A stretch of DNA of 64,000 bases from Elusimicrobiota bacterium (GTDB lineage Bacteria; Elusimicrobiota; Elusimicrobia; UBA1565; UBA9628), in NCBI GenBank assembly GCA_026388095.1, contig JAPLKL010000007.1, positions 1 to 64,000 of the forward strand, in the 5' to 3' direction. This document shows, piece after piece, positions 8,220-47,382 of this stretch. Under the pieces are notes generated by a model. That model was not told where the DNA came from. It was given only the letters and a program-made list of their open reading frames with translations, and searched no databases. The position numbers and the translations under genes are program-made. Every line of letters begins with the position of its first letter. Position 1 is the stretch's first letter.

Positions 8220-8245
8220 GCCGGAGAGTCTACTATTTTCAACGA

Positions 8246-8298
8246 GCGCGTCGCCCTAGGCGACGCGCCACCGGCGCCCCCTATGAGGGGGCGCCGGT
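8246..8298. repeat. Two tandem perfect hairpins between genes
   Basis: Hairpin A (8246-8268) has a 10-bp perfect stem with loop CTA. Hairpin B (8270-8298) has a 12-bp perfect stem with loop TATGA. They sit one base apart, past the stop of the coiled-coil gene at 8319 and just upstream of the GT start at 8219. No T-run follows on either strand, so they are not standard terminators, but could still block transcription or protect RNA ends. Confidence 0.7.
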
Positions 8299-8318
8299 TC
8301 CGTTGGGGTGGCCACCCG

Positions 8319-45004: not shown

Positions 45005-45310
45005 TTAACGCTGATAGGTGCTTTCGGACCGTCTTCTGACCGCCAGCAGGACGACTCGCTTGGCCTCGTCGTCCACATCGTAGAGTATCCGGTAGTCCCC
45101 CACCCTGAGCCGATGCGTCGCGACCATATGGGCGATGCTCACAGGCGGCCTTGGGAACTTGAATTTCTTGCCCTGAGGCCGCGGGTCGGCGGCCAGTGAT
45201 TCTATGGCTTCTTTGATCCGTGATGCGAGCGTCCTCGGCAGCTTCGTCAGCTCCTTGAGAAAATGCTTCTCGACGGCTTCGCTGGCGAACCCGACGGAAT
45301 AGTCCCGCAT
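45005..45310 (-). CDS. RelE/ParE-family toxin
   Basis: A 101-residue protein with the RelE/ParE fold signature. The N-terminal helix reads FASEAVEKHFLKELTKLP, and the core strand pair is THRLRVGDYRILYDVDDEAK followed by VVLLAVRRRSESTYQR. The final Arg and Tyr are typical of ribosome-dependent mRNA interferases of the RelE group, though ParE (gyrase) cannot be ruled out. Four bases after the antitoxin stop, it is the second gene of a type II toxin-antitoxin pair. Confidence 0.88.
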   Translation of the reverse strand: MRDYSVGFASEAVEKHFLKELTKLPRTLASRIKEAIESLAADPRPQGKKFKFPRPPVSIAHMVATHRLRVGDYRILYDVDDEAKRVVLLAVRRRSESTYQR

Positions 45311-45314
45311 CGGC

Positions 45315-45593
45315 TCAAAGTTCTAGTTTCTTCAATACCTTCGCAGCCGGCCGCCAGCGGCCCGCCGCGTAAGCCTTGCGTCCAGACTGGACCATGGCGA
45401 CGAGTGCTTGGTCTCGGGATTCCTCGAGCATCTCTAGAAGGTCCACCATCTCATCGTAAGGGATGAGCATATAGGCAGGCTGGCCTCTGTCAGTGGCCAC
45501 TATCGGCTTATGGGTTCTGAGCAGCATGGAAAGATTGTTCTTGAGTTCCTTGACGCCCACGTGTCGCGCTTTGAGTATCTGAGCCAGGGTCAT
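45315..45593 (-). CDS. Phd/YefM-type antitoxin
   Basis: A 92-residue protein. The middle reads KELKNNLSMLLRTHKPIVAT, then RGQPAYMLIPYDEMVDLLEM, the Phd/YefM pattern; the C-terminal helix should wrap the toxin. GGAGG lies before the ATG. Its promoter carries a symmetric repeat that fits autoregulation by the antitoxin or the complex. Confidence 0.88.
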   Translation of the reverse strand: MTLAQILKARHVGVKELKNNLSMLLRTHKPIVATDRGQPAYMLIPYDEMVDLLEMLEESRDQALVAMVQSGRKAYAAGRWRPAAKVLKKLEL

Positions 45594-45734: not shown

Positions 45735-46001
45735 TCAGAGTGACCGTCGCAGCTCGTCGTGGGTCCCGACCGCCAGGAGCCGGACCTCGTCCCGGGACAT
45801 GGAGAAGACGAGCCGGTCCAGGAGACCGGCGCGCACCTCCCAGAGGCCGCGGCGCAGCTCGCGCAGGCCCAGGCTGGGCATGGGCCGGTCCTCTTGGAGC
45901 ATCCGCTCCAGGAGGAGCAGGGCCTTCGTCACGGACTCCTGCCTCCCGGCGGGTAGCTTCCGGTAGAGCCTCTGGAAGGCGTCGGCGCTCGTGTAGCGCA
46001 T
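45735..46001 (-). CDS. RelE-like toxin of a second toxin-antitoxin pair
   Basis: An 88-residue protein of RelE-like fold: FQRLYRKLPAGRQESVTKAL, then LRRGLWEVRAGLLDRLVFSM and DEVRLLAVGTHDELRRSL. The VRAGLxDRLVF phrase matches the central strands of type II mRNA interferases. It begins six bases after the AbrB-type antitoxin stop on the same strand. The RelE-type fold with an AbrB-type antitoxin is a less common combination than RelE/RelB. Confidence 0.75.
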   Translation of the reverse strand: MRYTSADAFQRLYRKLPAGRQESVTKALLLLERMLQEDRPMPSLGLRELRRGLWEVRAGLLDRLVFSMSRDEVRLLAVGTHDELRRSL

Positions 46002-46007
46002 GGCGCC

Positions 46008-46307
46008 TCAGCGCTTGAGATCCTTGAGCAGGGCGGACACGCGCCGGAAGGTCTTGCCCTTCCCCTCTCGGCGCAGGCGGGCCAGCTTCTCGTAGGCTCC
46101 TGGGGAGAAGTCGGGGTCGACGGGAAGCGTCTCGGTCCGGGTCAGCCTGACGGTGCCGGCCTCCGCGTCGACGATGAATCCGACGAGGTCGCCCTTGGCG
46201 CCGACCTTGAGGAGCTCGCGCACCGGCTTGGGCAGAGTGATCTGGGCCTTGGAAGTGACCGAGGCGGTGATGAGCCTGGGGGTGTGATGGGAATCCTTAT
46301 TGACCAT
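46008..46307 (-). CDS. AbrB/MazE-type (SpoVT-AbrB) antitoxin
   Basis: A 99-residue protein from ATG 46305-46307, started here because a -10 box ends eight bases upstream; ATG 46325 would add six residues. Residues 15-60 are an SpoVT-AbrB domain: ASVTSKAQITLPKPVRELLK, then VGAKGDLVGFIVDAEAGTVR. The C-terminal part (DPDFSPGAYEKLARLRREG) should bind the toxin. It pairs with the RelE-like gene directly downstream. Confidence 0.82.
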   Translation of the reverse strand: MVNKDSHHTPRLITASVTSKAQITLPKPVRELLKVGAKGDLVGFIVDAEAGTVRLTRTETLPVDPDFSPGAYEKLARLRREGKGKTFRRVSALLKDLKR

Positions 46308-46315
46308 AATCACGG

Positions 46316-46343
46316 ATGATAGCATAAAACGGAATCCTTACAA
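46316..46343 (-). promoter_or_regulatory. Promoter of the second toxin-antitoxin pair, probably leaderless
   Basis: On the minus strand TTGTAA (46338-46343) and TATCAT (46316-46321) are 16 bases apart, and eight bases separate the -10 from the ATG at 46307. No ribosome site is seen. Confidence 0.45.
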
Positions 46344-46357
46344 ACAGCATAACGACG

Positions 46358-46436
46358 TTCCGCCCCTCCGCTGGCGCGTCGGGGCGGTGGCGCCCGGCGC
46401 AGACGGCGGCGCCGGGCGCTCGGAGAACGGCGGGGA
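46358..46436. repeat. Diverged inverted partial copy of the hairpin element
   Basis: This stretch carries an 11-bp perfect hairpin at 46390-46419. Read on the minus strand, the stretch resembles 46476-46541 of the neighbouring element: the same GCGCCCGGC stem, a near-identical CCGTCT loop and flanking AGAACGG and GTTC-GCC blocks. It therefore looks like a decayed second copy in the opposite direction. The match is by eye and imperfect. Together with the next element it fills the 390-base gap before the response regulator. Confidence 0.45.
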
Positions 46437-46455: not shown

Positions 46456-46702
46456 CTAGCAGGCTGCTGATAAAGTCCGTTCTGCGAGCGCCCGGCGGCC
46501 GTCTGCCGGGCGCAACCGACCCGCGAAGCGGGGCGGCAGAACCCATCCGATGGGTTGCACGAAGGATGGCGCCTTCGGCGCGACTGGCCCAGGCAGGCTG
46601 CGCCTGTCTGGGCCAGTTCGGGGATGGACTGTTGCCCGCTACCGAAAGGACTGTGTCCGGACATAGTCCTTTCCGCAGGAGGGTTTATCAGCAGCCTGCT
46701 AG
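46456..46702. mobile_element. 247-bp MITE-like element with 19-bp perfect terminal inverted repeats and six hairpins
   Basis: The ends CTAGCAGGCTGCTGATAAA (46456-46474) and its exact reverse complement (46684-46702) form perfect 19-bp terminal repeats. CTAG at each end can be read as a 4-bp target duplication, or TA as a 2-bp one. The interior has no gene but holds six hairpins: 46488-46513, 46520-46532, 46540-46556, 46569-46581, 46583-46617 (16-bp stem) and 46644-46673 (15-bp arms). The last contains the palindrome also found at 27294. The right end supplies the TAG stop of the response regulator. It is probably a non-autonomous element moved by an outside transposase, such as an IS5- or IS630-type enzyme (inference). 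Confidence 0.72.
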
Positions 46703-47382
46703 TCGTCGAAGCGGTAGCCGAAGCCGCGCACGGCCACGATCCGGTTGGCCGTGGGGCCGATCTTGTCGCGCAGGTGGGAGAGGGTCACGTCGATGACCTT
46801 GGTGGAGAGGTCCAGGCCCTGCTCGTAGCCCCAGACGTGCTGGAGCAGGAAGTCGCGCGTGAGCACCCGGTTTCGGCGGTGCATCAGGAACCAGAGCAGG
46901 TCGAACTCCTTGGCGCTCAAGGGGACTTCCTTGTGCTTGACGTAGGCCTTGCGCGAGGTCCGGTCGAGCTTGAGCTCCCCGGATTCCTGCACGGTCGGCT
47001 CTTCCAGGGCTCCGGTTCGGCGCAGCAGGGCCTCCACGCGCGCCACCAATTCCTCGGTGTTGAAGGGCTTGGTGATGTAGTCGTCGGCGCCCTCGCGCAG
47101 GCCCGTGACCTTGTCGCTGACCGCGTTCTGGGCCGTGAGGATGAGGATGGGCAGCCGCGCCGATTTTTCCTCGCCCCGCAGGTCCTTGAGCAACTCCATC
47201 CCCTCGCCGTCCGGCAGGGCCCGGTCGAGGACCATCAGGTCGGGCAGAGCGCGCTGCAGGCTCTTGCGCGCCTTGGCCAATGTGTCGACCGTCTGGACCT
47301 CGCAACCCTCGTCCTTGAGCACCTCGCGGATGAGCTCGGAGGTTGCCGCCTGATCCTCGACGACCAAAATCTGGGCTTTCAT
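46699..47382 (-). CDS. OmpR/PhoB-family response regulator
   Basis: A 227-residue protein. The receiver domain has the acidic pair VVEDQ (residues 8-11), the phosphorylated Asp53 in LMVLDRALPDGEG, the conserved Thr/Ser position in ILTAQNA and the lysine in DYITKPFNTEELV. The DNA-binding winged helix (residues 130-227) has LSAKEFDLLWFLMHRRNRVL, VIDVTLSHLRDKIG and the final RGFGYRF. No kinase gene is adjacent. The stop codon TAG at 46699-46701 is formed by the end of the 247-bp inserted element, so the insertion fell exactly at the gene end without harming the protein. Confidence 0.95.
   Translation of the reverse strand: MKAQILVVEDQAATSELIREVLKDEGCEVQTVDTLAKARKSLQRALPDLMVLDRALPDGEGMELLKDLRGEEKSARLPILILTAQNAVSDKVTGLREGADDYITKPFNTEELVARVEALLRRTGALEEPTVQESGELKLDRTSRKAYVKHKEVPLSAKEFDLLWFLMHRRNRVLTRDFLLQHVWGYEQGLDLSTKVIDVTLSHLRDKIGPTANRIVAVRGFGYRFDD

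Follow-up and report, generated by a model that had tools for sequence, protein, structure and literature searches.

The 247-bp element studied here lies at positions 46456–46702 (forward strand) of the window, the 64,000-nucleotide stretch of Elusimicrobiota DNA that was analysed. It runs from one terminal inverted repeat (TIR) to the other and is present in ~30 copies in the genome. The left TIR (46456–46474, forward strand) consists of CTAG followed by CAGGCTGCTGATAAA, the first four bases being the target CTAG, and the right TIR (46684–46702, reverse strand) ends in the second target copy. The sequence agreed with the original prediction that perfect TIRs, 19 bp long including CTAG, enclose 209 bases with no gene. 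The gene adjoining the right end encodes an OmpR-type response regulator with Response_reg and Trans_reg_C domains (46699–47382, reverse strand). Its TAG stop codon is provided by the right CTAG of the element, and the earlier proposal of a neutral insertion at this stop codon was supported by the copy number, flanks and congeners described below. Two toxin-antitoxin-like gene pairs were found beside the element at 45005–45593 and 45735–46325 (both on the reverse strand), namely Phd/YefM together with ParE, and a protein resembling PrlF/AbrB whose short partner had no Pfam match.

The interior of the element is a chain of six hairpins that is closed by the TIR stem. Hairpins H1 (46488–46513, GCG-tip-CGC) and H2 (46516–46536, CCG-tip-CGG), which occupy positions 1 and 2 of the framework described below, are closed into a three-way junction by a stem whose 5' strand GTTCTGC (46479–46485) folds with GCAGAAC at 46536–46542. 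The loop of H2 is the site of a two-hairpin insert in sister copies. They are followed by a third hairpin, AACCCATCC-GAT-GGGTT (46540–46556), which varies among copies, and by a fourth, GGCGCC-TTCG (46568–46581), whose tip is invaded in sister copies. H5 (46584–46616) exists in two unrelated tip versions on one base (CTGGC...GCCAG). H6 (46645–46672) is a palindrome with the centre GTCCGGAC, and in sister copies this centre is invaded by a ~400-bp element with an 8-bp duplication. All of these hairpins are given on the forward strand.

The element had an RNA minimum free energy of −169.1, compared with −108.2 ± 5.3 for 200 dinucleotide shuffles (z = −11.6). Folding with DNA parameters gave z = −11.3, and the inner 209 bases without the TIRs gave a z of about −8.5. 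The earlier description of six stable hairpins held for the chain, and the super-stable loops GCGAAGC and C-TTCG-G were both present. The third hairpin was perfect in the window copy only and was unconserved in the other copies.

Copy number and insertion sites

The element sequence occurred at ~30 dispersed places in its own genome, with 71–100% identity over most of its length, and extra pieces were found at contig ends of this genome, which is a draft of 79 contigs with an assembly broken at such repeats. Copy number had been named as a check on the MITE assignment, and these matches showed that the element is not single-copy. Across the genome, 46 ends had at most one mismatch from CTAGCAGGCTGCTGA, while the reversed control gave 0. 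A search of 38 genomes placed the element's diverged relatives mainly in the same genus. An exact TIR search of a genome-contig collection without the element's own genome gave matches solely in unrelated phyla. With TIRs, no transposase gene, a length under about 700 bp and multiple copies, and with the further evidence of flanks and congeners, the stretch at 46456–46702 was confirmed as a mobile element, a non-autonomous transposon of the MITE type.

The predicted duplication of a CTAG target was borne out at two loci (L005 and L011), where convergent coding frames end exactly at both boundary CTAGs. Both convergent genes keep their CTAG stop at these loci, which is possible only if the target was duplicated on insertion. 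Judging from these sequences, each gene pair must have shared one CTAG with a 4-base overlap before insertion; at L005 the pair is glycosidase-like and GtrA-like. Orthologues of one flanking gene end in a bare, element-free CTAG in congeners G001 (for L005) and G006 (for L011), so that the suggested comparison with empty sites was positive on one side of each locus. No exact two-sided empty site was found at these two loci in the congeners, in which the flanking genes were present with other neighbours.

Coding-like flanks, judged by a simple codon-usage score trained on the window, were found at 44 of 54 unique element ends, and the boundary TAG closed the reading frame at 30 of them. By a hand count from the flank scores, 18 of the 20 copies with both flanks touched a gene stop, compared with 12 of 29 CTAG sites in the window (p = 0.0008, Fisher test). 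The element thus shows a preference for, or survival at, gene stop codons. CTAG is rare (31 observed, 188 expected from base composition). Since 12 of the 29 window sites of this rare word are already gene stops and insertion there is tolerated, most of the stop-codon bias can be put down to target supply and harmlessness. There was no orientation bias, as the end facing the gene was the H6 end in 15 cases, the H1 end in 12 and unclear in 2.

Candidate partner transposase

A genome of the same bacterial family (G021) contained an IS1182-type gene (DUF772) between perfect 17-bp ends, CAGGATGCTGAAAAACC, which are close, though not identical, to the element ends CTAG-CAGGCTGCTGATAAA. This gene matched NF033551 with an E value of 1e-54, although decay of the gene left its score under the curated cut-off. 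In another genome (G016), multi-copy repeats had the ends CTAGCAGGCTGCTGAAAAACC, and there was a reading frame whose start, MMGTAEGQKS, resembles MMGIAESQKS of the G021 gene. An IS5 or IS630 transposase had been suggested as the partner of the TIRs; the ends in G021 make an IS1182-type (DUF772) transposase more likely, and the element is probably an IS1182-type MITE, as far as its ends can tell.

No transposase with identical ends was found in the element's own 79-contig draft genome, and the viral contigs searched contained no relative of the transposase. Two genes of the same genome were considered as partners and rejected: an IS1182 gene on contig C46 had no matching ends around it, and the sole IS110-type gene (PF01548) was unlinked to the repeats. 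The IS1182-type gene on C46 is directly followed by a group II intron with a reverse transcriptase (Rfam RF02005 and RF00029; L129, 1718–5182).

A hairpin framework beyond the element

H1 and H2, together with their junctions, recurred without the element ends. A covariance model of this framework gave 59 matches in the own genome and between 0 and 12 per genome in six congeners. Most other genera of the family yielded no match, and three further genomes (G017, G026 and G029) yielded a few. The hairpin core thus belongs to a family that is largely confined to one genus, a finding that goes beyond the original prediction. The junction letters of the framework are fixed (GAGCG-tip-CGCMACCG-tip-CGG-AGAAC), whereas the tips vary wholesale. 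In 29 framework sequences, 97% of cells were paired, and no G-U pair occurred in 498 cells. Double-sided changes were seen in 70 cells at 12 pairs and one-sided changes in none, and the pair-counting measures were reached by none of 500 shuffles. This covariation supports the view that the dense hairpins reflect a conserved structure.

The window holds two further framework domains without TIRs. One (46353–46424, reverse strand), of the H1-H2 type, is inverted relative to the element and lies at a distance of 31 bp from it; the other (8241–8310, forward strand) has different tips and is related to L246 and L291. TIR-less copies form dispersed families of 290–400 bases (L212/L213, L154/L156 and L153/L158), and one long related pair (L290/L298) has element-like ends, two framework domains that are inverted relative to each other and the two-hairpin insert. 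The data on gene orientation around the TIR-less domains were too noisy for a bias to be seen. Long runs of at least five consecutive perfect hairpins with another kind of junction (CGGTTCCGTTGGGG-TGGCCA) were observed in a genome of the same genus (G002; L247, ~1380–1830).

Tip exchange and nested insertions

Comparison of the copies showed that hairpin tips have been exchanged between copies and entered by insertions. The two versions of H5, CTGGC-GAGCCTTCGGCTC-GCCAG and CTGGC-CCAGACAGGCTGCGCCTGTCTGG-GCCAG, stand on the same base, and the arm CCCAGACA was present at H1, H2 and H5. Different hairpin positions had more 8-base words in common than almost all letter shuffles. All five recognisable foreign inserts, a small number of events, were located at a hairpin loop or symmetry centre, although tips account for only around one eighth of the element interior. 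The inserts in H1, H2 and the fourth hairpin were two-hairpin units of 50–60 bases with CCGTAAGGA, the insert in H5 was a small element with the ends GAAGCTGTGAAAAAAT, and that in H6 was a ~400-base mosaic with GTCCGGAC on both flanks. Stem-loop replacement of the IS1272 type exchanges a target hairpin without duplication; tips are replaced between the copies studied here, but the recognisable nested inserts show apparent short duplications.

The ~400-base mosaic of H6 (L024, 1501–2187; L019, 1060–1757) has imperfect ends, CAnnnCTGTCCGGGG, and is split by another palindrome, TGTCCGGACACAG. Two-hairpin repeats with CCGTAAGGAAATCCGTCCGGCCGG, of the kind that invades tips, stand alone elsewhere in the own genome at, for example, C9:17772, C10:26232, C17:67541 and C48:30650.

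Discussion

We consider it fairly likely that the element is a MITE with IS1182-type ends, whose hairpin cluster is both produced and targeted by mobile DNA and acts at the DNA level, not as a dedicated RNA gene. The element with its hairpin cluster would be moved by a transposase supplied in trans. Its hairpins would act as single-stranded or cruciform DNA, perfect palindromes would be maintained by template switching, in which each arm can be copied from its partner, and other palindromic elements would preferentially land at the tips or replace them. The exchange of tips could come about by transposase action or by recombination. Processes that could produce what is seen are on record: template switching makes and restores perfect compensatory stems (PMC8794818), IS elements hit REP palindromes at the symmetry axis (PMC1525189), and IS1272, a member of the IS1182 family, replaces stem-loops (PMC5678879). 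Since the element has ends of the IS1182 kind, one class of enzyme may be responsible both for moving it and for altering its hairpins, although this is conjecture. In a stronger version, the tips would themselves be mobile, with an IS1182-kind transposase swapping them on a fixed framework so that exchange and nesting replace point mutation; we regard this as doubtful.

A selected RNA would also fit part of the evidence. The MITE could have captured and spread a structured non-coding RNA belonging to the genus, the compensatory changes in the core then recording selection on RNA folding, and the strong covariation, the fixed unpaired junction letters, the three-way junction and the long, multi-branched TIR-less copies (L154 and L156) all speak for it. 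We nevertheless think it unlikely, given that the 498 cells held no G-U pair, that copies stand behind genes in both orientations, that the distal parts vary between families, and that whole tips are swapped in place of single base changes. Moreover, Rfam covariance models run against the element and the long sister copies gave no family above the gathering score. A role in transcription termination, or in protecting the 3' ends of mRNAs by hairpins riding at stop codons, was suggested in the original prediction. Most copies do begin at a stop codon, and with hairpins directly behind the gene a read-through mRNA would end in stable structures. However, a search of the element for an intrinsic terminator (a GC-rich hairpin and a T run) found none, with no T tract after any stem. 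Either end of the element can face the gene (15 versus 12), the varying helix cells are free of G-U, and the rarity of CTAG, with 12 of 29 window sites at gene stops, ascribes the position mostly to target supply and tolerance. The suggested role was thus unsupported, and we judge it quite improbable.

We give still less weight to the reading in which a Y1 (RAYT) transposase moves the hairpins as repeats of the REP/REPIN type and the CTAG and TIR ends are a secondary wrapper. The palindromes are short, have fixed letters at their flanks and occur in paired inverted arrangements, and the own genome has two Y1 transposase genes, as such repeats would lead one to expect, but no framework domain lies near these Y1 genes or near those of congeners, and one congener (G004) has 11 framework matches and no Y1 match. 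The GTAG and CGTC tags that PMC3733652 defines for REPs are absent from the framework letters GAGCG, CGCMACCG and CGG-AGAAC, and the link to RAYT was rejected.

The DNA-level reading is favoured over a strand-specific RNA by perfect pairing without G-U, the change of whole tips, the occurrence of both orientations and the lack of a terminator or an Rfam match. Against it, the absence of G-U would also be expected if stems were replaced whole and selected as RNA, and the own genome, as a 79-contig draft that breaks at repeats, yielded no transposase with exactly these ends.

Among known systems, MITEPsy1 of Pseudomonas syringae (PMC3189936) is likewise short and non-autonomous, with inverted ends (18 bp in MITEPsy1) and insertion into CTAG with duplication, but it is 100 bp long, has no reported hairpin cluster or nested tip insertions and was attributed to an IS5-like element. 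A further parallel is the IS1182 family, especially IS1272 (PMC5678879): the transposase between the most similar ends is of this type, and members of the family are known for targeting inverted repeats and replacing them (PMC5678879). In contrast to it, the window element targets the 4-base palindrome CTAG with duplication, and its copies encode no transposase. REP, REPIN and BIME sequences (PMC3733652, PMC3116915) are also dispersed intergenic palindromes in paired inverted arrangements and known insertion targets (PMC1525189), whereas the family described here has a two- or many-hairpin domain with fixed junctions and wholesale tip swaps, and lacks both the GTAG/CGTC tag and a flanked RAYT gene. 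Three elements on Rhizobium or Rhizobiales contigs (L176, L178 and L179) have the TIR CTAGCAGGCTGCTGATAAA at one end, a length of ~250 bp and several internal palindromes, but these palindromes are unrelated and fold more weakly (z of −3 to −6, compared with −8.5). Since contigs with the same end sequence carry other palindromes, hairpin-rich MITEs of the IS1182 type may represent a recurring pattern.

Landing at stop codons through the rare CTAG explains how such a bulky structure could spread with little harm. The dozens of copies, with hairpins intact, swapped or invaded, form a natural series on the origin and upkeep of perfect hairpins and on their attraction of insertions. They also call for caution, as G-U-free covariation need not imply a selected RNA and can be mimicked by palindrome copying and hairpin-targeted insertion. 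If the tips are indeed mobile, multi-hairpin repeats would evolve by exchanging and nesting whole hairpins.
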